Assembly (NCBI RefSeq): GCF_026914265.1
Contig: NC_069124.1
Coordinates: 22,506,592 to 22,570,591, forward strand
From: Mya arenaria
Lineage: Eukaryota; Mollusca; Bivalvia; Myida; Myidae
Reading direction: 5' to 3'
Length of the DNA: 64,000 bases
The notes under the pieces were generated by a model. It ran no database searches, was not told the DNA's origin, and worked only from the letters and a program-made list of their open reading frames with translations. Positions within the stretch are counted from its first letter, which is position 1. Each line of letters begins with the position of its first letter. Below, one piece after another: positions 34,221 through 63,300 of this stretch. Both the position numbers and the translations under genes were made by a program.

Positions 34221-37200
34221 GTAAGATTTGCGAACATATAGATGCGTTTTGGGTGAAAAATTGACCTGTTTACGACAGTTGCCAACGCAGTGAAAAGTCG
34301 GTCGTGTTCGAACCTGACACTGCAATGCATGTGTCTTTTGCTTAAACTTAAATAAATTGTGTTACTTAAAGACACTGTTTTCGTATGTTTTATATTGTCG
34401 AAAAGCTGATGAAATAACCAAATATCATATCCAATAACACCTCATTTTTGAACATCTTACATATCTTTCCTCTAACTTCATGATGTCTAGATTTCTAAAT
34501 TAAATCCATTTTAAACTGTAGATGGCACATCTAATATTGTCAACTCTTTTTCATTGCTACTTATTATCAGGGGTGTAGAAATGGGCCGGGAGCCGGTAAA
34601 ATAACCCGGTTGCTTTAGCATCTCCACCCGGCTAATTTCCCCACATCAACAAAAATAAAATCTGTTATTTTTTGTCATGTCTGTTCTGTTTACATCCGTT
34701 TAAAACCTTGATTGTTGGTATTGTTAATTTTGCTTTCCGCGCGTTCCGACTACAATACAGCATTAGCTCGATACGTGACGTCATTAGTCGCATCCCCCTC
34801 TGGGATGCTTTTCAAGTATTAGTTTTGGGTTTCCCAGTGTTCCGAATACAATAACATTAGCTCGATACATGACCTTATTAGTCGCATCCCCTGTGCGGAT
34901 GTTTTGAAATTAATGATTTGCGAAGCAATGGAGGGTGAAATAAAAAAAAATTCCAGACACAAAAAAGCGTAGTATTTAGAATGCAACATGAGCGTGTCTG
35001 GCCTTCTGTTAGTCCTATTACCATTTACGCAACAGTAAATTTTATATACGCGTGTTAAACTTAACCAGGTGTAAACAAAATGAACAAGCTTGTGGTGATG
35101 TCACTGCTAAAAATAATCCATTATTTTGATGAATTTTACATGTACGTTGGGTGAAATTTAGTACGCTTTAAATGTCACAAAGTGTCCAGATATTTCTTTT
35201 GGTTATTAAAATGGAATAAGTTAGCTGCAGGTGAAATATCTAAAACTACAGAAAATGAAGTTAGATGTTCAATTTTCAGAGGTTAATAGTGATTCAGTGG
35301 CTGAAAGTAAATAATTGGTAGAGAAGAAATTGCATATATTATTAGAAGGGAATAGCTAGCAAATGTCAAGGCATGTGGTCTGGAATGTTATAATATTATC
35401 CTGAATCTGAATTTGACAGTAGTTTGGTTCATTAGTTAGCCCTCACTGGTGGGTGGGGGGATAGTACTCAATTTCAGTATCATATTATAGTACATTTATG
35501 TTAAGGTTCCCTGTTACAAAATAAACATGCACCAGAAGACTAAAATGTTTGGTTAAAAAGGCTTAAATTCATCCCACAAGGGGCGTTGCCCCCTTGACCC
35601 TAACAGGGGGAGGACACCCAGACCCCCCGCCTACTTTTAGGTTATTCCCTGCTACTTGAATTAATTTCTACACCCCTGTATTATGATATTGATATTAATA
35701 GTCAACAGAAAAAAACAGTATGCAGTCTTCAATAAAGTTGAAAAAAACAACAATTTTTTTAAGACATTACAGTATTGAAACCCAGAGCACCAAATTTCTT
35801 AATTTGACAGTTATTTAAGTATATATTTTTTATGTTTAAAGTAATTTGATACAACTTTATTAGCTATATTTTACTTTTTTCAATAGCTTTACAACATTTT
35901 TTAACCTGATGTTTGTCCGTCATACACTCTACATTATGTTTCATATATATTTGCGTCACGGACACTACGGACCATGGACATTACGGACCAGACATTACGG
36001 ACCAGATTTAGGGACACTACAGACCAGATTTAGGGACACTACGGACCAGATTTAGGGACATTACGGACCATCTTCAGAAACTTACGGACCATCATTTATA
36101 ATGTTTTTTTTTAATTTATTCACTCATTGGTCTTAAATTTGTTAATAAATACTTGAATATTAGTGCTCAGTATGAAAATAATCTTTAATGTACTTGAAAA
36201 ATCCCAGGAAATTCCAATGTTAAACATCAATGTATTTTTAATAAAATATTATAATAATTTGAATAAAGTATAACCTTTAACTTTTTTACTTACGTTTGAA
36301 CAAGATCAACGAATTACACTCGACTGGTTTTTAATGTCAACATGCCATAACCTCATTTTCCGCTAAATCTGAGCCAAAATGATAAATGGCACTGTAACCT
36401 ACCAGTCGGATTGTGTATTGAGCCGTGGGTTCAGTGAAAGTGCGCCGTTACAATGGGTTTTCACACTTTTATGATTGCCAATTAAAGGTTGTCAGTATAA
36501 TGTTTGTTTCTTTTGTAATATACTGCCGATAATTACGGGTACAATTATAACTAATAAACACTAATTAAGGCAACAGAAATTGCCAGTTTTAAACATCAGT
36601 CTGCAAGAAATGCAACAAACACACATCGTTTATTTAATATATGCTCGATTTATTTTGGTAAATAAACTGTTTTGGAAAATATTTCTGCTCGAATTATTTT
36701 GGGAAATAAACAGTTTTGGAAAATATTTCTTCTGTTGCTTTTAACTGATTTAACTGCCGATCTTTCAAATTTCGTTCATTATTGTTCACATAATTGTTAT
36801 AAATGGTCTTTAACACCTTTTGGAATTTCACAAGATTTTATATTGAACCATTGATCTATTCGAACTTCACGGGATTTTTCACAGTTTTATGGAAGATATA
36901 ACATCATACTGAGCACTCATATTCAAGTATTTATTAACAAATTAAAAATTAATGAGTGATTAATTTAAAAAAAAATGTGTTTAAATTATGGTCCGTAAGA
37001 TTCCGAAGATGGTCCGTAATGTCCCTAAATCTGGTCCGTAGTGTCCCTAAATCTGGTCCGTAATGTCTGGTCCGTAATGTCCATGGTCCGTAGTGTCCGT
37101 AATTCATATATTTTTTATGTAATATAAATGTATTAACATAAAAAGTATATTTGCAACATAGTGTTAATGTTGTGTGACACAATGGCCTTTAAATTGATTA

Positions 37201-40200
37201 CTGTTACAGGACCAAATCATTTCATTATTGCAAATAATCCTCGAATTAGATCCATGCATATAACCTACATGAAATTATCCCAAAAATATGAAAGGGAAAT
37301 TGTTTAATAATTGTCATTTGAATAACATGAATTTACATAATAATTTTCTTAAGATCAGTATCATTCTGAATACTGTGATATATAAAAAATTCTCAAAATC
37401 TTGTTTTAAATGGTAACATTTCCAAAAATTTCAAGTTGTAGATTTCCATTTTTTAAAATCTGATTCTGTAAACAATACTATGACACAAAATATTTAAGTA
37501 CAAAAAATCCTGATATTTAAGGTAAACAAATATTTAAAAAAGTGTAATCAATCAACTCTGGCCATTATATAAAAAATGCATTTGAATGCCATAAACAAAA
37601 CACTGTGCTTGTTCAATTTAGGTTTTCCATTCCATAGCAAATTTAAGCAGATTTGTTCATGGACCTATGGTCGTTTGCAAATACTTAGTATGTGTTAATT
37701 GTGAAAAAATACTATTTTACATTAATTCCTTACTTCTTTTCTAGGATGCTGGTCCCAGTTCAGACAGTAATTGAACAGATGGGTGTAGATGTACTGTCTC
37801 TTCGGGATGAGAAAGGTCATACTCCAGCACACTGGGCGTGTCTGGGTGGCCATGCCACTATTCTTCGCTATCTCATAGAACACAAAGCGCCAGTGAATGA
37901 ACCTAGTAACAATGACCTTGGAGCAAGGCCTATTCATTGGGCTTGTGTGAATGGTCATATAGCGATAGTGGATATCTTGGTTCAGGCTGGTGTTGGTCTG
38001 GATGTGACGGACAATAAGGGTTGTACGTGTCTCCTAGTTGCGGCCCAATATGGGCAGACCATGCTGGCAGGGTATTTGATGGGGAAGGGCGCCCGGCTTC
38101 AGATGGTGGACAGAGATGGGGACACAGCCCTACATTGGGCGGCATTTAAAGGTTAGGGGTTGTTCTATTGAAATGAATTTAAATTTAGTAGAATTTATCT
38201 CTCGTGCAAAACTTACCAAGATGTGTTTCTTTCTGTTCTTTGAGAATGAAATTATGTTTGCAAATGGAAAAAACAAAACTGTATAAAGTCTCATTTAAAT
38301 GTATATGAGTTCTATATACATACTATTTAATTTGTCCTTAATGTTGCATGTTAATTTTCATTAATATAGCATTTCAAGCTTCCATTTTTTTAGACCAACT
38401 ATGTCTAAGGACATTTACAAGGGGATAAACATATGATCAAATATTGTCAGGAATCAATTGATGATGATTGAAGTCGTGATAATCAATTGCATTATATCTG
38501 AATTGATTATCCCTATTGGCTGTATTCCCTAAAAGTAGAAAAAATATGGGAGAACAACCGTATTTATTAATAATTTTGTATTCAGCTAGGAAAGAAAGCT
38601 AATTATTAAATAACTCCTTTAAAGTAACAAATATACAGTTAAAGAATTTCCTTTCATGTGCATTCTTTGTTTATTTAACATGTAAGCACAGGCTTCTAAT
38701 TCTTTCAAACCACTTGAGTTTTAACATTTTTATGTTATTTTATTTAGATTTCATTACATAGTCGAACATTTATCGAAATGACTTGACCAATCATTGCCTA
38801 TGATTGATTTCTGATTTTATACCAATTTAAATCCCTGTTTTAATCCCTCCCTCTATTTTTTAAAGGAAAAGCTGAATTGATGAGGCTCCTGATATATTCC
38901 GGCTTCAATTCACGTCAAAAAGACAACTTTGGACAGACACCCCTTCATTTAGCCTGTATCAATGGAGATCTGAATAGTGTAAAGGAACTATGTGAACAGG
39001 TAAGTTTCAACTCTCAGACTTGTGGGGCTGTTTGTTCAGAACTTGGTAAACAATATCATCTTAAATATGAAATAGTTCATGAATTTGTTATTTTTTTTTT
39101 AATAAAACAAGCACAGCTGAAACAGTTGTATCACAATTTAAAAAAATCATCACAAGTGTGTCCATGGAGTTTCCATTGTGGTAGAGGTTTGTAAGCAACA
39201 ATGTTGCCTTCAACAATGCTGTTAAATTTAACAAAGGTAGGAACAATTCTTGGATGACTTTATTAGTAAAATACTTCATTCGTGTTTCCTGACCTAGTTG
39301 TCATAGTCCTTGTAAGGTCAGTTTCGAAATAAAGTTAGCTTCTAGCGCTTGGGAGATATTTATTTGCCATCTTTTTAGCAGAATACTGTTGAAATCTCTT
39401 TTTCTGTAAAAGACTTTTTATACATTTATCTATTATACACATTCATTACAGTAGTTGCTCTCCTTAACTGTAATTAGTAAAAGTACCTTAAGGTCATTAA
39501 GTATTACACTACAGAAGATGGTCTTAAGTTAGAATTGGATCATTTCCTGAACTGTTTAATTCCATAAGTAGACTGTACTAGGGCAAATGTATACTTTTTA
39601 ATTAAAATTCACGTTCTTAAGTTTCAAAAACAAAGAACATCTTTTTTAAGCATGAGTTTGTTTAAGAATGATAGTGTTTCAATAATATTAATGTACACTT
39701 ATGTTTAAATAGACTATAGTGATCTTTTTCAGAATATGATTCTGGACCAGAATAATTATCATTCACCTTTCACACATGTGTAGTCAAGGTCGTGTTGATA
39801 ACAATGTCAATTACAATTCTAATTAATGATGCATTACAGGATGGAGTTGACATTGGGTTGCCTGACAAGAATGGAAAAACACCTCTCATGTTGGCATCTG
39901 GTCGCAAACATACAGCTGTTGTGGACTACCTGAAAGCAGAACTCAAACAGAAAAATAGCTTCTTACCTAAAATAGACTTTTGGTAAAAGTGATTGATTTT
40001 ATTTTATCAAAAAGGGCATCAATAGTCATATTATGAGTAACTTGCGCACATAAATTGAAATTGCTTTGCTGATAAATTGCTATAAAGTTATATCAGTGTG
40101 TGTATACCATCATTGAAAATGATGAAGAAATAGTAATCTTTATTTAAAGTCTTCATTTGAAGCAAAATGTTGCCTTCCGATGTAGCATTTAGGATGTATT

Positions 40201-43200
40201 TTATCATGTGGTTACACACACTGTATATGTACACAAAACTATGTTTGTGACCCTTTTTGCTTTAATAGGGTCCAAAGTAAATAAATCAAGCCCAATCAAT
40301 GCATTCAAGCACGTTTAGAAATTAATTACAAATTGGATGGACATGTATTGTACTCTTTAAACTTAAAAAAAGTGGTGGAAACCAGTTAGTCATCAGGTAC
40401 ATGTACAATATATCATGTGTCTTTACTTTTAAGATAACGTGACAGACTTCTGAACATCCTTTGTTTTTCTTTCAGGTCAATAGTGTTTGGTCCCCCTGGT
40501 AACAGTAAGGGTCCTCTCCTCTTCTTCTTTGTTAACGTGTTATGCTGGGGCTATCCCATGTATATTATAAAGGTAAGTCACAAAAATTCAGATACACAAA
40601 TATTTAACTTTAATAGAAATTTGTTGCTTTTATGACGTTAACATCGGTTTTTTAAAAAAAACAATCCTTGACTTTATGTCCTGTATTTTCTTTAAAAATG
40701 TAGTCGCAGTCTGGCTTATTGAAAAACAATTGTTAATTCAAAATTGTGTGTAACCTCAGTTCAGTATAAGATAAAAAATAAATAGATTCTGGGGCCATAT
40801 TACAAAAGCATCTTAGGTTAAAATTTTACCTTTTTCTTAAATTCAACAATTTTCTTAACTGTTTTACTTCACATGTAGAAAGTGTTATGTCTAGTTTATA
40901 TTCTGCAATTAAAGTATGGACACTTTAATTTTTAAAAATGAAAATTCCATTTTAAAGAATTAGATTTTTGAAGAAATATAACAATTCCAATTTTACACTT
41001 AAGTTTAAATATGCTCAAAAAATAATATGATGCTTCTGTAATACAGACCCTGAGCTTGTTTTGCCATTTTACTTGTGATTGTTTATAGGGAGTATTAGGT
41101 TCAGAAATATACTATATACAATCACATTTCTCCTTTTTGCCAAAACAGTGCTATTTTCCCCCTTTCAAAGCCCCCTGTCCACATTCCCTTAAAATGGGGG
41201 GGGGGGGAAACTCATTGTAGACTGAAATCAGGGTTGAGAGCTATCAATTTCAGACGGCAGTCAAAGCTTTGTTTTTTGGCTTTATATTTGCAATAAATGA
41301 TATTAAAAAGTAACTTGAAATTAATAAATGGCTTTAAAAATAAATGCACCAGGATTCTTAGTCCCTTAATTCTGCAAAGGGACTGCATCCATCACAATGG
41401 CAATCAAAGTTTATTTTCAGGATCGAAACTTTGGATCGATTATCATCCCAGTTGTATTAAGAACGCTTAGAAAACAAGCTGCAAGAAAATAAATTAATGA
41501 AAAAAGTGAAAAGAAGATAATTGTGTTGGTTTTGATTTTTTTCAGTGCCTGCCATACACCTGGTATGACCTTCAGTTCCTGCATATCCTCTTCTTCTGCA
41601 CCAACGTGATTATGTGGTTCTGTCTATTCCACGCGAGCACCACCGACCCCGGGTATCTGCCGAGAAATATCCCCGAATATGACATGGCTATAAAACAGGT
41701 AGATTATGATCAGGTACTAACAGTTTTTGGTTTCGATGCTTGTGCATATAACCAGATCCATGCTTGCATATTTCAACATCCAGGGCTATACATTGAATGT
41801 ATAAAATGCCTTCCTATTATGCAACAGAGTTCCCACAAAATAATCGTAATTTAAAAAAAGAGAGAATTTTTTGCGCTTGCCATAATTGTCAAGGGAGATC
41901 ATACTGAAGAAGAGTGTAACGTACTGTGGTAATGTGGCGCTTGGTTTAGCAAACCATTTCATTTGGATGGTAATGAATACTACTGTTTTTATTGAAAGAT
42001 CTCTCCCGATCGTAATGTCTTCTGCAAGTAAACAAGCAACATGTTTTGTCAAGTTCATGTTTTATCATGAGGATGGCAATTAAACTAAACTAAAGATTAG
42101 CAAGTCTCCTCTCAGAACAATAATTAAATCAGCTGATTTTTACTTACAATTGAAACGTGTGTTCATTTTCTTAGGCTGTAGATGATATGTCATAATATGT
42201 TCAAGAAATGGCATGTTAATTGTTAAAAAAGAGAAAAAAAATCATTGAGAAAGTTGACCTTGAACTTATGTGGCCAGTAGAGTGGGAACCCTGTGGCAAG
42301 TACATTAAAATTGAGATTTACTTGACCAAACATTAACATAAACTCATTGCTGGCGTCAGGTAGGTTGGTAAGCATTAATGTCGAGCCCTGATTATGAAAA
42401 TGTGTGTGCCTGTTTTGTATGCTTGATGCTTGATTAATTGATGTTGTACTTGTTGATACGGAGACAAACATCTTACGCTGTGTTAATTTTGTGTATGCTT
42501 TGAACCTATGAATTAATTGATACTTTCATGTTCAAGCTTCTTATTATAGATAGGTTTAAAAAGTGTGTACGTACAGTGTTCGGCACTAACGGGGTCCCGG
42601 GATCCCGAGGTCACCAATTTTTCGGGAGGAACACCTGAACTTCAAAGTCCGGTATTCCGTCGGGACACTTAAATTTTGACAGATAAATCTAAATATCAAT
42701 AAATAAATAGCGTTTCATGAATTAATTACCTAAATTTGGGTCCCCCTAACTTTCTTGACAGTGCATGTAAAAAAGATATTAATATTAATACGTCGCACAC
42801 ACTAAAACGAAAGTATGGCTGACCTTTTCACTATAATTACGTCATGAATCTATAAATAAACAGGTCATTTCACAGTGCGCATGCGGTTTAAGCTTCCGCT
42901 TTGTTGTTTACATTATCAACAAGGTCAGAGGTGACGGACTTTTATAATCGGTACAATGATTATGGTGAACTAGTTTGCTCATGTGTCAGAACCGCCCAAA
43001 AAGATGCCAAAACTGCTGACTTTGATGCCTTAATGATGCGACCATCGAGTTGTTACAGTAACATTTACGGCACAAAAGACTGGCATCCTACGGAACTAGT
43101 TTACTGGGAAGCCATCCTACTATTCAGCATTCTTTGTTTTATGCCATGATCAAAACATTATAGAAATAAAATTCCCAAAGTTTTATATTAAAATTTATGA

Positions 43201-46200
43201 CATTTTGGCGCGAAAATAAACATACACTATTTTCCAGTTGTCTGCTCTTGCAGTTTGCACTACACTTGTTGGGCAGTCTGATTGATTCACAAGCAAGATG
43301 TAATATTCCTACTGTTTTTCAATCAAAAGCAATGACATCTGACAAGACCCTGAACCTTGGCATTTTTAATGCTTATTTTCCGAAAATCTAAAAATAGTAA
43401 CAACATCAAGTTTTTGTTTACATTGTACCCATTGTGTGACTTAGACATTCTACCACTTTTGAACCCAATCTACCGACTTAAGACCCAAATCTTCCTCTCT
43501 GCCATTGCCAGAGGTTCACATGGGTGACATTGTGCTATAACTAACTTATCATTGCATGCTGTTGAAAACATGTATAATATGGTGTAAACTGGAATTACAA
43601 ATTGAAAAGTAAAAGGCACTGGATTTGTATGTTCAATTTAATATTGAAACAGGCTCATTAATGAAAAAAATGGAAAAAATGGAAGGGACTCTTAATTTCA
43701 GGAAGGGACACCTGATTTCAGATGTTGATGTCCCTTCGGGATCCCTTGGGAAAATGGTTAGTGTCGACCCCTGACGTACAACAATTTATAATACGCTTAT
43801 CCATGAAAATACTGGATGCTGTACTGACAGATCAGTATCTGGTATCATGCCATCACTGTTTTTTGATTGCTACCTTTTGCCCACTACAGTTTTTGTAAAT
43901 TTTTACTGATTTTATTGATGAATTGATAATAGAAATTTGACAGCAACATACTGTATCATTAAAGAATCCTTTTTGGAAATTATTCAACTGCTTAATTTTT
44001 TTAATATTTAAGAAAATGATAAAATTCAATGACGTTATTTCCGGAATGGAAATGGAAATGGAATGGAAATGTCAAACAGATCTCTGAGTGCAGTTACTTT
44101 TGCTACAACTACAGTTCATTAAAACAAGTAAATAAACAAATAATGCATATAATAAAAAGTATATTATGATAGGGAGCTTTACTGACAAGCTGTATCATGT
44201 CTTGTTTGGTGTATTAATATGCATCTATCGAGACCGATGCATGGTTTGTACATGTATTAATTAAATGTATGTAATCATGTTTGTAAGGAAATACAGATAA
44301 GAAAGTAAATGAAGCTTATGTATTGCGCAAATTTGTCACTACTTTAAGAGTCGAGAGATTGGATAAAAACAATAGTGTAATAATACTAGGGTTTTAGCTA
44401 TAAAAGAGTTATGGAAGTGTGCTGCACCATGTCTTTTTTGGTAACACCCATCTGTCTTCATAGAGACCAACATGTGCACTCTTCTGCCCTCAAAGAATTC
44501 AATACTGAATTATATTTCTGTCATATTGCTTAAAACTCATAATTTGATTATACATACTTTACAAAATTTACATATTTGGCATTTGCCAACAAATATTACT
44601 TCATTTGATCACAATTCCTTTTGGTCTTATTAAAAATATTCCAGGTGTACAAAGCCTGAAACAATGTGCCTCCCTTATTTTCTCCCTTACCAGCCTGTCC
44701 CTCTTCTGCAGCACCCTGTCCCTTTTAAAACCTGGCTAAAACCCTAAATACTAAAGAAAGGTTGATAAATTTGTATAAGTCATACCTGTAATAGTTCACT
44801 TCATTTGCTGTCTATTTTATTAGAATAAGCTAAGGAAAAAGGGGAAGGTAGGTTTCTGAGGGATATAACTTATGTTTGCATGCTGTATGGTATCATGTAT
44901 ATATGTGCATTTAACAATTCTGGAGCATTTGTTTTGCTATTGAAGTCAGATTTTATGCTTTTAACAAGGTAACTTAATAATTTACAGATTTACATAGGTT
45001 GCAGAGTTTTTTTGTTTTACATAATTAGATATCAGTGTTGTTTCTTCCTGACTGAACTTCCGCCCCATTCACAACGCTTCAACAAACATTTTTTTATGTT
45101 TTGAATTTATTTATAAATAAAATGTTTGAACCCTAGGTGTATGGATAAGTTTTTGTTTTTTTAAACACACAAATTTTATCACTTTTTTCTTTTCTGTGTA
45201 TTTTTCAAAGCATTCTTAGTAGGCAAAATTATGAAATCCCAATTTTATTCAAAATGATGCATTCTTTCTGATCAAAAGGCCCATTTCTGAAATGGTGAAG
45301 AAACCAACAGGATATGTTATCCATCATAATAAATTATACAGAATAGCTACATAATGAACACTTGAAAAACATTTGTATCATTTTAATAAAGATTTAAGTG
45401 CAAACATAAAATCTGGCTCCAGGCTGTCCAGCATTATCTGGTCTCTTGTGTTACAAGATGGGTTTCGCTGTGTTGGATAAAGAACTTCACATGGACAAAA
45501 TTAACACCTGTTATGTTTATAATATTTGCATTTTATTATCTGTCTGAATTATTACTATGTAGAAAACATTATAAGTAAATAAAATATGTTTTATCTTAAA
45601 ATAAGAAAAAAAAAAGTCATATACGGATCATATCTTACAACTCATAAATGTCATCAGCGAAATAGAAAAAAAACTTCGAAAGGTTACAAACAGCTTAATT
45701 TTTTATATATATATTGAAATTTTGGATGCAATTTTTTTTTGTTTACCGGTACCACATTCATGGCTGAAATTTTACTGTATTTAAACAGAATTCAGATTTT
45801 TAGAAAAAAGACCTATCTAATGTATTGAGAAAATGGCATTTCAGTTTTCAAACACACTACTTTCAGAATTTTGAAACTTTTATCTATTCCTATCATCAGG
45901 TGGCACACTTTGACGAATGGAAGCAGGGCGACAACCCTCTAAGTCGTCTGTGTCACACATGTCGCACGGTAAAACCTCTCCGCTCAAAACACTGCAAGGT
46001 GTGTAACCGCTGTGTGAAGGTGTTTGACCATCACTGCCCCTATATCTACAACTGTGTGGGCGTGAATAACAGGTATGTGCTCGCATATTTCATAAATAAT
46101 GTGATGAATTTTTTAGCATGTTGACTTGTTAACTACATGTCTGGCAATTTTTTTATAATTTTTTTTAAACTATTCTTAGAATACAAGCTACATTTACAGT

Positions 46201-49200
46201 CAGTGAAATTGCAGATAGTCAATCATTTAGTACTAGGCCTAATCATTTATGATTTCAACTTTCGCTGGTGTTCAAATGTCTGCCGTCTGCCACTCATCCG
46301 ATACACAATCCTTGTGTCAGACTTTGCGTTGAAAATGTGTCAGCAAATGAGGTTGTATTCTAAGTCAGTAAGATGACCTGAATGAAATCTCAATGATTAA
46401 GAAGGGCTCGATTGCTTCACTCACTCTGCCCATTCTTAATCATTAAGATTTTAATTCATGTCATCTTACTATTCCATATTCATGTCCATTTGCTGGGTAG
46501 AGAAAGATGCCCATTTTAAAATGCCATGATATTGTTCATATACCCTTGCTGGGTATCAAATCTTTTAACAGAAACAGTTGGCTTATGATGCACTGTATAT
46601 AAAAACGATATGATAAATTGTGATGTTGCATGTATCAAAGAGCTGAAAAGAAAGCAGTATTTAGAATGCTTTCTAATATGCATGTTGCATTTTTGATAGA
46701 ATTATATTTTTAAAATGATGGATGGTAAATGGGTGCATGTCTGAACAATGGAATAAAAACATTTTGTACAGTTGCTTCGCAGAAATCAATCTGAATATTC
46801 ATGGATTAAATTCACTCTCTGATAGTACTTCTATACCTGTTACCCAACTTTTTCAAAGCTTTACACTTGTGTTATGTTCCTTGTTGCTCAAAGCATTTCT
46901 AAGGTTGTCGTAAACTTGAATGTTAGTTCTTGTTTCGAGGGTTTCCTTGTAAAGTGGGATGTATTTGTATGAGGAGGAAAATCCCAGCCAAGCTTTATGT
47001 TGTAGTTCTGTTCTGTTTGCTCTGCATGATTTGGTTTACCTTTCACAACTTATGTTTTTAATAATTTATATACCGGTATAGTGGAGGAATGATAATGTTT
47101 ACACTAACAGTGTATTTGTATGTTGCTACTGTTTGCAAATGAACTCAGCATTTCAATGTTGTAAAGTATTGAATCATTGTGGCCTTTTGCTCTGCTCTAA
47201 CCGATGTGAATTTTGAATTTATTGCAAAATCAATAGTCTTCACACATCAAAGAAAAAACGTTGACTGTTGTCAGCAATTTGGCATATTTTTATAATTATG
47301 TATCTCGTGGAACTACGGAAAAGGAGCACTCATTACCCAGAAAAGGAGCTCTACATGTACTATTAAATTGCATAGATTTAAATTATGCCTGCAAGGACTA
47401 TATGGTAACAAACAAGACTCTCTAAAGAGACTAATGAAACTGACTGTTGGCAGCCGCCATTGAGGCAATACAAATTAACTGTTTCTTTTCACAAATCAGC
47501 TGTTTCTTTTCGTGCAAATAGCATATCAAACGTCCTTTGTTTTACTGAAGGATGAGCATGGTTGGCTTAGTTTATTTGCAAACAGTGGTATGGTATGTTT
47601 ATATGCATGTTCCTTTGTCGTAATACATAGCTGCTTGTTTTGTAGCCACCTCATTACTTATATTTAGACGCACATACTTATTCAATCATATATGCACCTG
47701 TTAGTCATTATCTTATCATCTTGTCATTATCTTTCCATGGGTCAGATAGTTTAAGATTAAGCCCATTTCCAATTACAAAATAAACAATCATGCATAATTC
47801 CCAATTTCGACAATGTTTCATCCTTGAATTTTGATTTCAAATTAAAAGACTTCAGTCATATATTTTCAAATTATAGGTCCAAATAGTTTTTCCAAAAAAT
47901 AATAGAGAAGAGGCCTTCTTATTCACCAATTTACAGGATTCGTTGAATCCATGACTTGTACTCTGTTTTGACATCTCATTATAGGGTTTTTTAACAAAAA
48001 CAAACTTCAGAGAGTTTTCATACTGCTGTTTGAAGGCTGTTTCCCCTATCAAAAACGTGTTCATTTCCCCGAAATTATGATTTTTAATAAAGCCACTAAG
48101 CCAGACACTGTCTCCTTGAAGGAATAAAAAGACAATGATTATTTCTTTTAAAAAGGAACAAGACGTTCTTACAGTATTATAATTATATAAATAAAAGGGT
48201 GAAATTAAAAACATGTATATTATTTCCTGTTGCGTCGTTATTTATTTGTCATGATTTTATATTTTCCTTGTCTTAAAAAAATATCTTCCTTGTCTTAAAA
48301 TTTTTAGATTAAAACATCACTGAACAGTTCACTCCCAACCCACTGAGACTTGTGTACACTTGCATGTTTTCTTTGCCTTTCACTTTCTTTTAAAGCTGCA
48401 CTCTCACAGATTTACCGTTGTGACAACTTTTTTTTGTCTTTGAATGAGCCAATTTTTGCGTAAATTTCTGCAAACCAGTGTTTAAGGCTGCTGACAAAAA
48501 GTCAGATTTTCATATTTCCATTCGAAAATTTATGTTTTATTGCCAAAAGCGTTACTAACGGTTTAAGAAAAATGCATCAAACATCAATTTTTGACCTTAA
48601 ATAGTGAAGTCTGAGATATGATTTTTTGTCAGCAGTCTTATATCACTGGTTTCCATGATTTTTCGCACAAATTTGCTTGTTCCAAGACAAAATATAAACC
48701 AAGAAGTTGTCAAAACATCCAATCTGTGAGAGCGCAGCTTTAAAGCAATACTCTCTACATTTTGCAAAAGTTGATGTTCACTGATTTTTCTGTCTTTTTC
48801 GTTTGTTCTAACATGTAGCTACCACATAGAATCTGTTTGAAACTAGTATCACCCTTAATCTTGAAAAAGTCTGTGATACCTGACCATAGAAATTGTTAGA
48901 ATATGAAACAAAGCTAGAAATTGTCATCTTAAACCAGTGTTCCATATATGCATGGGAGTTGTGTCCATGCATATAGAATGTTATGCTTGGATGGAAAAAC
49001 AACAACCCCAAAATTACACCAATATATCCTTCAATGTTTTGTGTTTTTCGGTGCTTGCTTGAATAATTACCGTATGCATGAAAGAGGTTATAATTAACAA
49101 TATAAAAATGGGAGATATGCATCAGATATATTTTTCTATGGCATATCATGATTGCTTCAAACACAATAGTCTACATGTATGGTATGCGTGCATGAATAAG

Positions 49201-52200
49201 GAAGGATAAAAACATATTATTAATGAAAATACAGAGTAAAAAATGCAGTTTAACACGTCAGTTGATGTAGGGATAATTTTTTTGTAATTGAAAAGAGTTT
49301 AAGGTTTAGTTTGGGTTTGATGTATTCTGCATTTGATTTAAAGTCTGATATCCTAGTTACAGCTACAGTTCTACCTTGAAACCTTTATATTGTCAGTGAT
49401 TTTTTGGGTGCAATTTACTGCCTCTTTAAAGGCTGTTTCCCCTTAGGAAAAACTGTAAAAAAATCAAAAAAATCCAATTTGATTCAAGCAGATTACATAA
49501 ATGAATAAAAAGCAATGAGTTTCTTGAAATATAAACAAAATCTTGACGAGACTGACTCTTTCACAGCATAATGTTTGCATAAAAAAGTTAAAACATGTAT
49601 ATTTGCCATTATACATGTATTAGCTGTTTTGGCCTGATTTTGTATTTTCCCAAAGTCGATATAATATTTTTCACAATTTGCAAGGCACATGTGGTAAAAA
49701 TAATTCCAAAAAAATCACTGAATTCATAGAACACCAAGTACTAGGCACATTTTCAGTAATGTCTTAGGTCTGAGTTTTTATTGAAGTATTTTTTACCATG
49801 TGTAAATTATTGTAAAAAATGTTATTATAAACATATTCAGCATTTTTTAAACATGACGCCTCTTCAAATAGAAATTTTAGAATTAAAAATTGCAGTGTCG
49901 ACGGTAATGAAGAAAATTGGACCTTTGTTTCTACCTAAAAAAGTAGTCAGACATAATTATCAAAACAATATAGCAACATGATCATCGGCTGCAAAATCAA
50001 GATCAGAATCATCAAGCTAATTATACTTGGTATGCATCAAACATTACTCTAACATGTGACTCTGTTCTACCTCATACCAATGTAAGCTCACTTTAATGGT
50101 TTAACATATTCAAATAGTGTTCGAAGTTATATTTTGTCCAATTGGATGGCAGTACTTTTTTAAACCACCGTACATTTCTTTTGAAAATCAACAGTCAGCC
50201 ATCATAGGTTTTAAATAAGGTGAATCAAAAGATTTAAACAGGTGGGGTCAGTAGACAAAATATAATCTCAAACACTAAGCTGGTTAAAGGATTATTAGTA
50301 TGCATTTACCGAAAAAATGGGCCTAGTGTCTGTAACACTTTAGGCCCTGTTATTTTGGCAAATGCATACTTAAGACCTTTAACCATTACTTAAAATTAAT
50401 TCACCCTTAATGACAGTTGTATTCCTGGTCTCGTTGTAGGCACTGGTTCCTATCGTTTGTCATGGTAACAGTGGTCAACATTTATATCACCGACTTTTTC
50501 GTCTACAATCGCATCAGTTCGTTTGGCTGGGATATCCTCACGGTTGTTGGGGCCGTGGAGGCTGTTGTTCTTACCATTGGCACTTCAGGTCTCCTTTGTA
50601 TGATGGTAAGATAGAAGAATAAAGATAGAAACATACGCTATGACGGTCCGGTGAAATCGGAAGGATGTGTTCTGGGTTTGAGTGTTGCTTGTGTGGCTTT
50701 TTTGTGGACCTGTGACGGTGTTGCAAAGATTTCCAACCTTACATTCTTTATATCTATATTTGTCACATTTTCCTTTTCACATAATATTTATTTTTTTAAG
50801 CAATTTTTAAGCAATAGGGACTTTAGGCTTAAATGGTGGATGGGATGGGATGGGATGGGGGGGGGGTTCTATAATACAAAGCTGCTCTTGAGGAGTTCGC
50901 TTTAAAAATGTGACCAAAGTTCATGATAGGAGACACAGTAACATCCTGGCTTATCTAACAAACGAGTCATAAGTGACATTTACCAGAACATATCCGGAAG
51001 ATAATGTTAAGATTTCTGCCCAACATTTTGCCAATCAATTTGGAAGGGAGTTTAAACAATTCTCTGCTAGCAGTTTGCTAGTTTTGTTTAGGAGATAACG
51101 AAGAACTATGAACCAAACTGGACCTTTACGGGTACAAAAGCATGGCAGAAATCTTAACTTAGAAGGTAGTTAGTCAATGTTATGATTTTCGTTACTGACA
51201 GTGGGGGATTTGTTTTCAGAGTAACATTTGTAGGTTTCTGTAACATGGTGATGGTGAACGGTCTGATCTCGATCTGCCTGAGCCTGTACACGATTAAAGT
51301 CCTGGACGAGAACTGGAACGTGGTGTATATCTTCTACATGGGTGTCATGCTGTTCTTCGAGGGAGTCGCGACGTATCTGTCTGGATACATGGTGAGTCTC
51401 GCGTTACATGTACTTCCTGAGCGATGAAGGCCAAAAAGTTTTAAGTGACTTTTTTAAGCACTTTTTCTTGTCCATTCTTTGATAAATACCCAGCTTGTTT
51501 TTGTAACTTAACTAATCAAAATAATTTAAAGTCTGTAACACTGATTTGACGAATTCATTAAATCTTCAAAAATAAAAATGAATATCACAACATTTGCCAA
51601 GAAATCTAAAAGTATATTTGATTTGTTAAGAACAAAGATTATATATAGTACCTTTTAATACCTTTGAATTTGATGTATTCTCCATTATATGTCAGTCATA
51701 TTTGTTTTTCTGTAATAATATTACATGCTTTGTTGAGATAAACTATGCAATTGACAATTGGATAGTGAGATTGGAATAGTGCTGAAATTAGTGTAAACTA
51801 AGTTTCAGCAAGCTTACCTCATAAATGACTTTAAACTTGCAGTTGAACAGTTGAAAATATAATCCTTTCTCCTTTTTTTCAGACGTACCTGGCTATCACA
51901 AATCTCACAACAAACGAGACGATGAACTGGAAGCGCTACAAGCATATGAAGGACAAGGAGGGGAAAATGAGAAACCCGTTTGACAGCGGCTGGAAAGTGA
52001 ATGTGCTGGAATTCCTACACATTATCCCCCTCGAAATGGAATTTCTGGAGAGAGATGATGATAACGAGACCTTGTAATTTATTCTCACGGATTATTTTTT
52101 TTTTAATGCTTTCTTGTTATTTTGTATGCAAATTAACACAATCTCATATTTCAGTTGTTGGCGATAACTGGAGATGACTTGCAGTTTCTGTATTTACCTA

Positions 52201-53213
52201 TTTATGTATATAGACAGTTGTATAGCTTCTTAAAGCCGTTTTATGCATGCACTTACAAGTACATTAAAAAAGAAATAATATGAGTTCAAAGCTAGTTTAT
52301 AAAAAGCTTGAAATCATATTTAGTCTGATTAAATAAAAACTTACTGACATTGTTGCCAATAAAGATTTCATTATCAATTTCATAGTACATAATTATATTT
52401 TTTCACATTGTTTACTGTTTATATAATATAAACATATAATGTAGACAATTATAAAGGTTTATCTATGAAACTCATTAATTAGCACCCCCTTGTAGTGATT
52501 TTTTATGTTCAATATAAAGCTTAAAAAAATCCCTGGCCCCAATATCACAAAAATACTGAAGTCAAATTTCAATCTCAACTCAATTTACCTGATAAAAGCA
52601 TATCATGATTTAAAATCTTGCATGTTTTTATACTTTTTGAAAAGTATTTTCTCATAGAATTTGTTTATAAGATGATTTTGTCAATATTTCAAAGAAACTT
52701 AATTCCAGAGCAAAAAATATACTTGAGTAGTTGTTAAAAAACAAGGAATTGTACTCAAATACAGTTTGGGCTGTAGAATATTCCCTTGGAATCTTGACCA
52801 AAGGCATAAATCTACATATTATATGATAGCATGCCTTTTCAAAGGTGTAAAATTACTTGTTATTTTTGATAGCTTTTGATGTTATGCGGTTAAATGAGTT
52901 AAGACTGAGATTGAGATTTGACTAATTCTTTTCGTGATATTGAGGCCAGCTAGTTCCAAACATCCATCAAGTGTTAACAATATCATCAATAACATGTTGT
53001 TGTTTTTTCTATTTTCAGTGTTTCCACGCTTGTTTCAACATTACAGTCAATGAGAGAATCAATCATAAACGATATAGCTACCTTAAAGATGGAAAGGGAC
53101 AGTTCTATAACCCCTTCCATAGGGGTTATATAAAAAATATAAAGGAGTACTTCCACATGTTACGACCATTTGAGGAGAAAGATGTTGAACTGTTGTCTGT
53201 GAGAACTGTGTGA
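34102..53213 (+). CDS. Ankyrin-repeat DHHC protein S-acyltransferase with alternative 3' exons
   Basis: Membrane enzyme that transfers palmitate from acyl-CoA to protein cysteines. Constant exons 1-7 encode residues 1-409: a short N-terminus, about five to six ankyrin repeats (about 60-255; for example GHTPAHWACLGGHATILRYL, DGDTALHWAAFKG, FGQTPLHLACINGD), two membrane segments (about 279-298, 311-328), TTDPGYLP, then the cysteine-rich domain with DHHCPYIYNCVG (catalytic Cys397). Two membrane exons (50440-50605, 51220-51391) both start in phase 2 and end in phase 0, so only one can be used. Two last exons (51883-52077, 53019-53213) each encode 64 residues with a TTNE or TVNE motif. Predicted proteins are 528 or 530 residues. 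Two membrane segments before the DHHC domain, not four, and the tail KRYSYLKDGKGQFYNPF recall plant TIP1/PAT24 more than vertebrate ZDHHC13/17; the family is sure, the subgroup is inference. Confidence 0.9.
34568..35678. mobile_element. Non-autonomous hAT-like transposon in intron 1
   Basis: 1111 bp with inverted ends CAGGGGTGTAGAAAT and ATTTCTACACCCCTG, flanked on both sides by TATTAT (34562-34567 and 35679-35684). The CAGGGGTG terminus is typical of hAT elements, though those usually make 8-bp duplications. A GC-rich block with CCCCTTGACCCTAACAGGGG sits near the right end. No transposase frame. Confidence 0.8.
35957..37101. mobile_element. Long-arm foldback element in intron 1
   Basis: About 1145 bp with inverted arms of about 200-220 bp (35957-36176 and 36905-37101). 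The outer part of each arm is itself a tandem array of ACGGACCAGATTTAGGGACA units; the inner part is AT-rich (AATACTTGAATATTAGTGCTCAG on the left, its inverse on the right). TTCATATAT-like words lie close to both ends and may be a target duplication. Mutator-like or FB-type origin is possible. No protein is encoded. Confidence 0.8.
37745..38151 (+). CDS. Ankyrin-DHHC exon 2
   Basis: The 407-bp main ankyrin exon, acceptor CTTTTCTAG, donor AAAG/GTTAGG. Encodes at least three complete repeats with TPAHWA, RPIHWA and TALHWA signatures. Confidence 0.93.
38866..38999 (+). CDS. Ankyrin-DHHC exon 3
   Basis: One ankyrin repeat (DNFGQTPLHLACINGD). Donor ACAG/GTAAGT; the acceptor TTTTTTAAAG is unusual but phase and homology agree. 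Confidence 0.9.
39840..39982 (+). CDS. Ankyrin-DHHC exon 4
   Basis: Last ankyrin repeat (DKNGKTPLMLASGRKH) and a linker to the membrane region. Acceptor ATTACAG, donor TTTG/GTAAAA. Confidence 0.92.
40141..40235. repeat. Dispersed repeat, intron 4 copy
   Basis: Matches 5655-5757 and two copies in the segmental array: AAAATGTTGCCTTCCGATG, then ATCATGTGGTTACACACACT. Confidence 0.65.
40476..40572 (+). CDS. Ankyrin-DHHC exon 5
   Basis: First membrane segment: GPLLFFFVNVLCWGYPMYII. Acceptor TTTCAG, donor AAAG/GTAAGT. Confidence 0.92.
41196..41207. repeat. 12-base G run
   Basis: A homopolymer in intron 5 of the ankyrin-DHHC gene; prone to length error in assemblies. Confidence 0.95.
41546..41698 (+). 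CDS. Ankyrin-DHHC exon 6
   Basis: Second membrane segment (FLHILFFCTNVIMWFCLF) and the DPG-like motif TTDPGYLPRN that precedes the catalytic domain in DHHC enzymes. Acceptor TTTTTTCAG, donor ACAG/GTAGAT. Confidence 0.93.
42574..43773. mobile_element. Non-autonomous hAT-like transposon in intron 6
   Basis: About 1200 bp. The left end is CAGTGTTCGGCACTAAC and the right end, reversed, CAGGGGTCGACACTAAC; just inside both ends lie GGGATCCCGA-type words. Flanks share ACGTAC. Inner frames do not look like a transposase. Confidence 0.7.
44388..44745. mobile_element. Dispersed repeat with AGGGTTTTAGC ends, intron 6
   Basis: About 358 bp. The left end is AGGGTTTTAGCT and the right end GGCTAAAACCCT; AATACT flanks both sides (one extra A on the right). 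Contains single CAGCACCCTGTCCC and GAGACCAACATGTGCAC words, linking it to the repeat that carries the 32-bp minisatellite at 21.4-22.9 kb and to three copies in RASL12 intron 3. Confidence 0.65.
45900..46072 (+). CDS. Ankyrin-DHHC exon 7 (catalytic domain)
   Basis: Cysteine-rich zinc-binding domain: CHTCRTVKPLRSKHC, CNRCVKVFDHHC, NCVGVNN. All zinc-ligand Cys/His positions of the family appear to be present. Donor ACAG/GTATGT; the exon ends two bases into an Arg codon. Confidence 0.95.
46340..46500. repeat. Short palindromic element
   Basis: Arms of about 70 bp: CAGCAAATGA, AGTAAGATGACCTGAATG and AATGATTAAGAAGGGC on the left; inverted counterparts GCCCATTCTTAATCATT, CATGTCATCTTACT and CATTTGCTG on the right. 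The spacer is about 20 bp. It would fold into a hairpin in the primary transcript. Confidence 0.75.
48394..48739. mobile_element. TTAA-site MITE, AGCTGCACTCTCACAG family, copy 2
   Basis: 346 bp with exact TTAA on both sides (48390-48393 and 48740-48743). Ends AGCTGCACTCTCACAG and, reversed, AGCTGCGCTCTCACAG. The best-preserved copy of the family in the window. Confidence 0.9.
50440..50605 (+). CDS. Ankyrin-DHHC exon 8A, membrane exon
   Basis: Joins exon 7 as NNRHWFLSFVMVTVVN and encodes two membrane segments, ending LLCMM. Donor GATG/GTAAGA, phase 0. The NRHWF start matches what normally follows NCVG in DHHC enzymes, so this looks like the ancestral form. Confidence 0.88.
50834..50867. repeat. 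GGGAT microsatellite and G run
   Basis: GGATGGGATGGGATGGGATG followed by a run of G, in the intron just after exon 8A. Confidence 0.95.
51220..51391 (+). CDS. Ankyrin-DHHC exon 8B, alternative membrane exon
   Basis: Acceptor GTTTTCAG. It completes the same Arg codon as 8A (AG/A) and reads NNRVTFVGFCNMVMVNG, with two membrane segments around a central WNVVYIF. Donor CATG/GTGAGT, phase 0. If spliced after 8A instead, the frame shifts and meets a stop within eight codons. Confidence 0.85.
51883..52077 (+). CDS. Ankyrin-DHHC last exon 9A
   Basis: 195 bp including the stop. Encodes TYLAITNLTTNETMNWKRY (TTxE motif TTNE) and the cytosolic tail. Relatively GC-rich codons. Poly(A) signals AATAAA follow at 52332 and 52358. 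Confidence 0.9.
   Translation, partial: TYLAITNLTTNETMNWKRYKHMKDKEGKMRNPFDSGWKVNVLEFLHIIPLEMEFLERDDDNETL
52332..52363 (+). terminator. Poly(A) signals after exon 9A
   Basis: Two AATAAA hexamers (52332-52337 and 52358-52363), about 255-285 bases past the 9A stop and upstream of exon 9B. Their use would remove 9B from the transcript. Confidence 0.6.
53019..53213 (+). CDS. Ankyrin-DHHC alternative last exon 9B
   Basis: Also exactly 195 bp including the stop. Encodes CFHACFNITVNERINHKRY (TTxE-like TVNE) and a tail with KDGKGQFYNPFHRGY. Acceptor CTATTTTCAG. Codons are more AT-rich than in 9A. A poly(A) signal AATAAA follows at 53415. Confidence 0.88.
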   Translation, partial: CFHACFNITVNERINHKRYSYLKDGKGQFYNPFHRGYIKNIKEYFHMLRPFEEKDVELLSVRTV

Positions 53214-53414: not shown

Positions 53415-53420
53415 AATAAA
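53415..53420 (+). terminator. Poly(A) signal after exon 9B
   Basis: AATAAA about 200 bases past the 9B stop. Confidence 0.55.
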
Positions 53421-60352: not shown

Positions 60353-63300
60353 CTGCAAAAATGTGTTAGAAAATGATAGTATTGATGTGTAGAAACAACT
60401 CATAATTTTTCAGAGAAAAAAACAACACCCACATATACAGGTATATCCAGGCGTATAAACATGCAAAAACTTAATTTATTTTATAACGATTGTGAAGAAA
60501 ATTATATTGAATTTATATATAATTTGCACGAAAGTATGTTTCAGAGAAAACCCACTAGTCCCGCTTTGTGACCACAAACCAAACTCAGATAAGCCCAATC
60601 CTGGTGCTCCTACAACTGTGCTAACCAGACAACCATCTCTTTTTGATTTATTTGCAAAGTGATAAATAATAAACTTAACAGTGGCATAGATTTTAGGATT
60701 TAGAGGCACTCCATAAAAATAAAAGGTGAGTTAGAAAAATGCCAGAAATTAATGCTGTATTAACAACCTTATCTATATATTTTTTTGCATTATCTATTAA
60801 AGTAAGATTAGACAGATTTTGTGAATTAACGCTGAAAAGTTTCAGTTATAGCATGTTATTTAAATTCATTAAATACCTTGAATATGAACACAATTTAAAG
60901 CACTGAAGTCAATTTTGTAAGCTGAATCATATACCTGTTCCTCTATGAAGATGTCATTTGCCATATGAACAATCTTATCCACGTGTATGACCTGCCCGCT
61001 AAGGTTAATCTTACAATCTCCGTCCACAAGTAGCGTGGTAACCATCAATGCCTCGACCATGAGCTGGCGATACTCGGGCTGAGGGATCATATTGAGGACG
61101 CGTTCTACCTGCAGGGCGAATTTGAACTCTCCTGATGTCATCTCCCGTGTAAGGCTGTGGGCCAAGAAGTTGTTACAGATACTCAGGCCATGGCACTGTG
61201 AATGGAAAAAAAGCAAGAACTTTTGAAATTTGAATTAAATAAGCCCAAAAATTAATGTCAACTTTTTTTAGTGATAAAAGTTTAAAAAAACATTACATGT
61301 TTGTGTAATTTTGTATATTATTCATAAAATAAGCCAATATATTCCTGAAAGTTCAATAAGACTAGTTCATAATAATTATACACTTGCACTTACATGAAAT
61401 AAAAATGAATATTTTAATATGAGTTCAAGAGCTTTGAAACACAATTAACATGATAGGTAAATATAATTTCTAAGTTGAATATCAAAATGTGAGATTTAAT
61501 GTAATTCACTAAAAGAAATCAGGGATATTTTATTTCCATTGCCCTGTGTGTAAAAACATTTACAGACCTGAGTATACAGGCCAAGATGCGCCATACAGAG
61601 GTTGGCTTCATAGCCATCAAAATAAATTAAACTGAGAGACTACCGTAGATGGACCAATAGTAAGTAAATATTACCATCCATACCTTATCAAGCACCTTTC
61701 AGACTTCGGTGAATGGATACCCAGGGGCTACCGTCTAGCCTTTTTCGCCTGAGTAACTTACTTAAGAATTAACATGAAAATAATATGATACTAACAATTT
61801 TTTTCATTTACTATACCTTTTGAAGCACTTGCCAGACTTGCGTGTAGAAGCCAACAGGGACACGGTTGAGTGCTCCGTCTAGACGGCGCCGTCTGAGCCA
61901 CTGACCCTGTCGGTCCTCCATCTCATCATCCATGTCATCGGCATTGGGCTGGACCGATATAGCAGGAAGTTTCTATTGGGGAGGTAAAATAAATGTCTCA
62001 TTACATAGTATGTTCACAAATCATAGTAACGCATAATTTATATGACCATGAATGAGTTGAAAAAATATTATTTTTTTACTAATAATCTTACAATATATTC
62101 AAATTTTAATTATCTTGAGGGCATAATTTTAGGTCATATTTAAGAATATAGATAATGAAATGTATTTAATTGAAATGTCATATATTAAAGGGACTAGACG
62201 CTAGATGATATAACTGCAAGAAAAAAAGAAATTTGTCAAAAACTAACATGAACTTGATATCTTTGTTTACAACACATTGAATGTTAATAACTGATGTATA
62301 ACATTGCTTACGAGACATGTATCTTTTTAAGTTTTTGCTTATTAATTTGAAAATTAAATGGGTCTGACTACCATGTAAATTCTAGTTAATATAAAAATAG
62401 CCTTGGTATACATATATATATGTGTCTGTATTAATCATGTGACTTTCACATGCTAAATATACACACTATAAACTGGGAAACTATTATGCGCTATTTTTAA
62501 ATATGTTATAACCCAGCTGAGAGAGCCACAAAATATTCCTTAAGTCATGTAAAGTGATGCATTATCTGCCTCATTCTAACTCATATTGAAATTCTAGGCT
62601 TGTTTTGAGGAAATACTGTATTTACCAATTTAGGAACTATCTGGTGTCTAGTCCCTTTAATTGCATTTGAAGGCTCAGTGCAAAATGGGTGTAAGTCCTA
62701 TCATTATATGGAGATACATCAGTCTGGCATTGAGCCCTTGATATGTAAATATCCATTTATAATTTTATTAAAGTCAGTATATTTATTACTAAAATTACAT
62801 AATATTCTGAATTCTTATAAAGCTCATAACAGTTGAATAGAATGAAACTTCTCAAAATCCAAACATGACTGTAGGAACTCACATTGATAGCAGACAAGTA
62901 CAATGGATGATAACAGAGAGAGAGAGAAACTGAGCAATCACAGAAAACATTCAATCTCTTATCCTTACTTTCAGACAACAAGAAAAACTACCATCTTAAC
63001 AATTGATTTGATATTAAAAACTCCGACATGACTGACCATCAAATCTGATCAAGAACTGAAATACTGAAAACAGTTGTTTCCAAACTGTAAACCAACATAC
63101 AGAATGGTTTGGCACAATAATCTGAAAGCAATTCTCGAAACAGCTTTTTAATTTCAACACCACTTAAAGCTGCACTCTAACAGACAACGTTTTGACAACT
63201 AATTTTATTTTTAATGCTGACAAAAGATCATATTATATATGACTGCACTGAATGCATTAGCTGAAGACAAAAACTAAAACACTGGCTCAAAACTGTAAGT

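Follow-up and report, generated by a model that had tools for sequence, protein, structure and literature searches.

Candidate alternative membrane exons and twin last exons in an ankyrin-repeat DHHC S-acyltransferase gene of Mya arenaria

A stretch of 64,000 nucleotides from the bivalve Mya arenaria (assembly GCF_026914265.1, contig NC_069124.1, positions 22,506,592 to 22,570,591, forward strand), hereafter the window, contains a predicted DHHC S-acyltransferase gene with upstream ankyrin repeats. The exon for the DHHC cysteine-rich domain (exon 7) is followed by two candidate membrane exons (8A and 8B) and two last exons (9A and 9B). The arrangement suggests that the gene is probably an ankyrin-repeat DHHC S-acyltransferase gene in which the C-terminal half of the protein is selected by splicing. 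The twin last exons are well supported as predicted coding sequence, and the alternative membrane exons are likely to be real. Positions below are those of the window.

Gene structure and reading frames

The features of the gene are as follows.

37745..41698, + strand: upstream coding region; open frames and splice sites read by eye, approximate, with further exons possible
~37745-38151, ~38866-38999 and ~39840-39982, + strand: ankyrin exons; open frames and Pfam ankyrin families
~40476-40572, + strand: hydrophobic exon; open frame, splice sites by eye
ending at 41698, + strand: exon bearing a DPG motif; open frame, splice sites by eye
45900..46072, + strand: exon 7, DHHC cysteine-rich domain (DHHC ... 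NCVGVNN), ending two bases into a codon; PF01529
50272..50392, no strand: palindromic dispersed repeat, like a miniature inverted-repeat transposable element (MITE) by shape, just 5' of 8A
50407..50416, + strand: TTAATGACAG, branch-site-like element of 8A; TTAMTGACAG match
50440..50605, + strand: exon 8A, RHWFLSF..., two hydrophobic segments; 166 bp, phase 2 in, phase 0 out
51192..51201, + strand: TTACTGACAG, branch-site-like element of 8B, whose AG is the rival acceptor (exon start 51202); TTAMTGACAG match
51220..51391 (or 51202-51391), + strand: exon 8B, RVTFVGF..., two hydrophobic segments; 172 bp, phase 2 in, phase 0 out
51883..52077, + strand: last exon 9A, TTNE and NPF..G...N (PaCCT-like); 195 bp, 64 codons and stop
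52332 and 52358 (52332..52363), + strand: two AATAAA signals of 9A, by motif
53019..53213, + strand: last exon 9B, TVNE and NPF..G...N (PaCCT-like); 195 bp, 64 codons and stop
53415..53420, + strand: AATAAA signal of 9B, by motif

Exon 7 alone matches the Pfam DHHC family PF01529 at 65.4 bits (cut-off 28.7), and the four possible isoforms score 82.9-96.4 bits, all above the curated cut-off, which places them in the DHHC family. Pfam ankyrin families match the upstream exons on the same strand as the DHHC part, as in the ankyrin-repeat DHHC subfamily; HIP14/ZDHHC17 chains are among the Protein Data Bank (PDB) matches of these exons, though not the top matches. Since the ankyrin, hydrophobic and DPG exons lie upstream on the same strand, the locus was taken as one ankyrin-repeat DHHC gene, and we infer that these exons share a transcript with exon 7. 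The gene may be Patsas/TIP1-like. A search of viral contigs for relatives gave no match.

An earlier note on this DNA had proposed the same exons from the letters alone, and all of them were found where it placed them, with canonical GT-AG borders. With a slash at the exon border, the exon 7 donor is AACAG/GTATGT. Exon 8A has the acceptor TTGTAG/G and the donor ATG/GTAAGA; exon 8B has the acceptor TTTTCAG/A and the donor ATG/GTGAGT. The split codon left by exon 7 (AG) is completed as Arg by 8A and, from the 51220 start, by 8B, and both exons exit in phase 0, in agreement with that note. All four joins (7-8A-9A, 7-8A-9B, 7-8B-9A, and 7-8B-9B) are open through to the stop. The note's claim that the reading frame forbids the use of both 8A and 8B also holds, as their junction breaks the frame and leads to a stop 7 codons further on. 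When both exons are skipped, 9A and 9B are read out of frame (stops at 51923 and 53131). Exons 8A and 8B show the frame pattern of mutually exclusive exons, with equal entry and exit phases and a frame that is broken when both or neither are used. The last exons are likewise as described by the note: 195 bp each, 64 codons and a stop, TTNE or TVNE, and an AATAAA of their own. The frames thus permit the four predicted C-termini that it envisaged behind one ankyrin and catalytic core.

The last exons and the order of the exons

Of 64 residues, 22 are identical between 9A and 9B (z 14), a level that none of 2000 shuffles reached. Identical bases at codon positions 1, 2, and 3 number 35, 35, and 16 of 65, respectively (Fisher p 1.2e-4). 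Third positions are at the random level and the coding positions are not, which points to long coding constraint on both exons. Judged by their sequences, 9A and 9B are clearly homologous coding exons of long standing, and as adjacent homologous exons they correspond to tandem duplicated exon substitution. Both keep T240 and E243 of the TTxE motif and the PaCCT-like Asn; NPF..G...N corresponds to the general form of the PaCCT motif. The TTNE of 9A is a complete TTxE motif, and the TVNE of 9B retains only T240 and E243. Because TVNE replaces the second Thr, 9B would be without one of two contacts to the DHHC domain, as these are described in passages of PMC8059564. The second Thr is also absent from 7 of 13 other DHHC rows of the same genome (13 kept from 18 loci, after removal of exact duplicates and of loci that failed the motif filter), so its loss need not make 9B inactive.

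Over the whole C-terminal half, the Pfam DHHC scores are 96.4 bits for 8B-9A, 93.6 for 8A-9A, 84.3 for 8B-9B, and 82.9 for 8A-9B. Behind exon 7, 9A exceeds 9B by 10.7-12.1 bits and 8B exceeds 8A by 1.4-2.8 bits. The comparison with known structures, whose bit scores stand without a shuffle control, is divided. With ZDHHC9, alignments through the membrane part score 68.3 and 69.8 bits for the isoforms with 8A and 54.3 and 52.9 bits for those with 8B, a preference of about 15 bits for 8A. With DHHC20 the order is reversed: isoforms with 8B score 56.8 and 61.0 bits and those with 8A 52.7 and 54.6 bits, a preference of 2-8 bits for 8B. Exons 9A and 9B lie less than 5 bits apart against the structures, in varying direction.

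These scores bear on the ancestry of the exons. The Pfam score and the full TTxE motif favour 9A as the ancestral tail. The earlier note had taken 8A and 9B as the ancestral pair, with 8B and 9A nested between them. Its choice of 8A has one structure on its side and one against it, and its choice of 9B runs against the Pfam score. A nested insertion, 8A-[8B-9A]-9B, was considered and rejected, as the order can be explained without it and neither Pfam nor the structures single out 8A-9B. Two separate local duplications suffice for the order 8A-8B-9A-9B, and two separate local exon duplications are the most likely history.

The same data were weighed for two linked cassettes, in which the only products would be 7-8A-9B and 7-8B-9A, each helical hairpin having its own tail. 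Two weak hints point this way. The GC content at third codon positions (GC3) is 0.74 in 8B and 0.67 in 9A, above the 0.58 of 8A and the 0.44 of 9B, and 8B-9A has the highest Pfam score of the four combinations, 8A-9B the lowest. However, the frame does not couple the two choices and leaves four combinations open, and the best ZDHHC9 match is 8A-9A and the best DHHC20 match 8B-9B, unlike the linked pairs. Linked cassettes are therefore rather improbable, although they fare best among the alternatives to a selected C-terminal half.

The membrane exons and the second copy of the locus

Exons 8A and 8B are alike in length and hydropathy, and each encodes two hydrophobic segments. Their position was further examined by a continuation test, in which each AG from 46073 to ~51882 was used as an acceptor after exon 7 and the continuation was scored with a matrix built on 22 DHHC stretches. 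Across the 16 residues after NCVGVNN, 8A ranked 1st and 8B 3rd of 285 AG sites; over 8 residues they ranked 3rd and 5th. Across the whole window and both strands, the 16-residue scores of 8A and 8B were reached by 24 and 42 of 6244 sites, respectively. A pseudo-exon scan covered both strands for acceptor-donor pairs that are 140-200 bp apart and compatible in phase, with thresholds derived from 8A and 8B themselves; of 30 such pairs, 4 were open. These were 8A, 8B with two acceptors, and one non-hydrophobic pair overlapping exon 7.

Several results weigh against alternative membrane exons. A gapped alignment of 8A and 8B gave 13 identical residues (z 0.2), and 813 of 2000 shuffles were as good. 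The two exons are therefore not adjacent homologous exons by this measure and are classed as candidate mutually exclusive exons, not as duplicated exons. The PF01529 score of exon 7 rises from 65.4 to 79.1 bits with 8A and to 83.6 bits with 8B, but two of five shuffled 8A sequences did as well or better (84.4 and 79.5), compared with none of five for 8B. The Pfam gain is thus uninformative for 8A and slightly informative for 8B. Pfam was accordingly not accepted as proof of a DHHC helix pair in 8A. When exon 7 is left out, PF01529 gives 21.2 bits for 8A-9A and 15.4 bits for 8B-9A, both under 28.7, and no DHHC match for 8A-9B or 8B-9B. In the continuation test, both exons lie far below all 22 training stretches, which were themselves included in the matrix. 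Moreover, a second frame of 8A is stop-free, so the open frame through 8A is not strong evidence by itself. The note's view of 8A and 8B as a related pair is thus borne out by position and hydropathy, but not by sequence similarity or by the Pfam score of 8A. The missing similarity implies that any 8A-8B duplication took place earlier than that of 9A-9B or was followed by faster evolution, or else that duplication did not give rise to 8A and 8B.

The weaknesses of 8A might mean that only one membrane exon, 8B, is real or used, with 8A cryptic or dying in intron 7 and isoforms differing only in the last exon. The failed shuffle control, the second open frame and the dispersed palindromic repeat directly upstream of 8A would all fit such a case. 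On the other side, 8A has a better acceptor than 8B, the first rank as a DHHC continuation and the ZDHHC9 preference given above; its GC content is 0.47, compared with 0.32-0.38 in the flanking introns; it shares a branch-like element with 8B; and it is identical in a second copy of the locus (0 of 166 differences, see below). A single membrane exon is consequently judged improbable, slightly more so than linked cassettes.

Acceptor strength was measured by a simple pyrimidine-tract score, expressed as the percentile among all AGs on the + strand. The acceptors of 8A, 9A, 9B, and exon 7 lie at the 97th to 100th percentile, with 9A the strongest of the set. As a further difficulty for alternative membrane exons, the 8B acceptor at 51220 is weak (42nd percentile) and has an in-frame rival AG 18 nt upstream (88th percentile), which would start the exon at 51202 and lengthen it to 190 bp. 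The element TTAMTGACAG occurs twice in the window, once before 8A (50407) and once before 8B (51192), at branch-site distance, and nowhere else; 0.39 occurrences are expected by chance, and 6 of 100 shuffles contained at least two anywhere. Before 8B, the A of the branch-site-like TTACTGAC lies at 51198, a distance of 21 nt from the end of the acceptor AG (51219). Read as a branch site, TTACTGAC would favour the 51220 start over the 51202 start. The near-equal lengths and the two Arg codons remarked on in the earlier note depend on this choice: both hold with the 51220 start, and with the 51202 start the exon has 190 bp and a Ser at the split codon.

The repeat upstream of 8A was also considered as a regulatory element. 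It lies in a strong predicted RNA hairpin (50270-50445, -58.9 kcal/mol, z -6.2). The palindrome at 50272-50392 has 48 genome matches listed, its own and the second copy included. As it is a dispersed repeat, its hairpin was rejected as a splicing control peculiar to this gene; an effect on 8A is still possible. Among the 20 pairs of inverted repeats listed, none pairs intron 7 with the intron between 8A and 8B in the manner of competing docking sites. Further inverted repeats lie at 46367-46470 and 48389-48744.

It is very unlikely that a short frame-restoring exon between 8A and 8B allows both to be used in sequence. Of the 18 open segments that would bridge the phase, the top one reaches -2.0 in combined splice score, close to the -0.8 of 8B. 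Its score is far under those of exon 7 (13.2) and 8A (9.5), its peptide has just 11 residues, and the core as described in parts of PMC8059564 would be disrupted by having four helices between the DHHC domain and TTxE.

From position 1605 onward, most of the window is repeated 2.24 Mb away on the same contig (C3:24743001-24813000), in long pieces that are 94.6-99.3% identical. Pieces 34568-35678 and most of 41860-44746 have no long match (pieces over 300 bp) in the second copy. Exons 7, 8A, 8B, 9A, and 9B and their splice sites are intact there. Exon 7 differs at 9 of 171 positions, all synonymous, and 8B at 1 of 172, also synonymous. Exon 9A differs at 3 of 195 positions, of which two bring mild amino-acid changes (E to D, R to K), and 9B at 2 of 195, both synonymous. 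The four alternative exons pooled show 6 differences in 728 positions, compared with 14.5 expected at the intron rate (p 0.010), and 2 of the 6 are non-synonymous (p 0.019). As points against the splicing model, both of these fall in 9A and the single-exon tests are weak (p 0.036 for 8A, 0.14 for 8B, 0.46 for 9A, and 0.25 for 9B).

Beyond the window, a probe about 0.7 Mb upstream is likewise present twice, in the same order and at 97% identity; a probe about 0.7 Mb downstream falls in a dispersed repeat and is uninformative. Four other DHHC loci in the genome are also paired on one contig, the two members scoring the same or almost the same. The upstream probe and these paired loci suggest that the second copy is probably an unpurged second haplotype; less probably, it is a large tandem duplication. 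An assembly artefact that stitched together exons of two alleles or paralogues is hardly credible, despite the several near-identical pairs on one contig and the duplication of the window itself, since the order 8A-8B-9A-9B and matching introns are found in both copies and no close third copy of these four exons was found among the best 50 genome candidates scored.

Proposed working and place among known systems

If the C-terminal half is selected by splicing, the ankyrin and catalytic exons would be constant in every product. The last two membrane helices (TM3-TM4 of the DHHC core) would come from exactly one of 8A and 8B, and the TTxE/PaCCT tail together with the poly(A) site from either 9A or 9B. 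All exons would then be spliced in the animal, and faulty products that join 8A to 8B or skip both may be cleared by nonsense-mediated decay. The 8A/8B swap might alter the acyl pocket, and the 9A/9B swap (TTNE or TVNE) might affect the tail and coupling to the active site. The swap of membrane topology suggested in the earlier note is unlikely, since 8A and 8B each encode two hydrophobic segments and the topology should be unchanged.

For the acyl pocket, DHHC20 offers a model. Passages of PMC8059564, PMC9006032, and PMC9105814 describe a cavity formed by its four helices and closed at the end by Ser29, Tyr181, Val185, and Leu213, with Ser217 also at the cavity end in simulations, and report that a change of Tyr181 shifts the chain length. 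The second Thr and Glu of TTxE touch the DHHC domain, and the PaCCT Asn has a role as well, according to parts of PMC8059564. At position 181, DHHC20 has Tyr and ZDHHC9 has Leu, and both 8A and 8B have Asn; Asn occurs in none of the 13 other genome DHHC rows and in neither of the 2 PDB rows. The main gate would thus be shared by 8A and 8B, and any difference should come from other positions. A chain-length switch at the acyl-gate residue is therefore not obvious, which counts against the splicing model. With an ungapped count back from TTxE, positions 213 and 217 hold small residues in 8A (Gly, Ala) and bulky ones in 8B (Tyr, Met); this register is an assumption, as a MAFFT alignment puts the two positions elsewhere. 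The ungapped register would predict a deeper pocket for 8A, which is a lead only. A changed cavity or acyl-chain preference through the 8A/8B choice is plausible. That the cavity wall (8A/8B) and the tail (9A/9B) are swapped independently behind a single ankyrin head for substrate capture, to give four enzymes with different chain preference, activity or location, is a speculative extension and appears doubtful.

An ankyrin-repeat part followed by membrane helices and a DHHC domain is found in AKR1, HIP14/ZDHHC17, HIP14L/ZDHHC13, TIP1, and Patsas, as given in passages of PMC3234281, PMC12795455, PMC9374236, and PMC8059564. The window gene shares this order with the AKR1/HIP14/TIP1/Patsas type, and the TTxE and PaCCT-like tail with DHHC enzymes generally. 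Unlike that type, it offers alternatives both for the helices that follow the DHHC domain and for the tail, two in each case. The structures of ZDHHC9, DHHC20, and ZDHHC5 (8hf3, 6bml, and 9oa6) match its sequence from the DHHC domain through to the TTxE region. These three enzymes are not known to have ankyrin repeats. Another DHHC locus of the genome (C4:67094729-67097905 and 67089801-67094800), a putative HIP14 orthologue, has a GTGAGT donor after NCVG, 4 residues before the point where exon 7 ends in the window gene. Its tail appears to be split, with TTNE and the tail end in separate open frames.

Exchange of C-terminal parts by splicing has many precedents. Sections of PMC9741552 count 236 events of tandem duplicated exon substitution in 214 human genes, and 154 fly genes. 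They describe such substitutions as often affecting membrane proteins and C-termini, with several events in tropomyosin, the C-terminus included. The likeness to the window gene lies in adjacent exons that replace each other, and 9A and 9B fit by sequence. The difference is that 8A and 8B are not recognisably homologous and may not be duplicates. For mutually exclusive non-homologous exons, the same sections report no support for functional importance, which tells against 8A and 8B. Words beginning with DHHC do not occur in the main text of PMC9741552. According to portions of PMC9374236, several Drosophila DHHC genes have splice isoforms. Among the titles and abstract openings listed by a literature search, with most subscription journals outside its coverage, none described such an event for a DHHC gene. 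Most probably, the gene forms alternative C-terminal halves by splicing, which is an event of a known kind.

The basis on which DHHC enzymes select fatty acids and protein substrates is unsettled. If the selection of the C-terminal half is real, the gene would offer a natural comparison set, in which helices or tail are exchanged one part at a time behind a fixed ankyrin and catalytic core. Should the splice choice depend on tissue, it would be a new means of regulating S-acylation. Gene annotation may well overlook some isoforms of such loci.

Three other features were observed in the window. A weak C1q-domain match (30948-31190, + strand, 19.6 bits, under the cut-off of 23.7) may mark a single exon of a C1q-domain gene located 5' of the ankyrin-DHHC gene. 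Downstream on the opposite strand, 60872-61234 (-) matches the phosphorylase b kinase C-terminal domain (KPBB_C) at 51.8 bits. Finally, a tandem array with a period near 64 bp at 21473-22248 is visible as shifted self-matches between the two copies.

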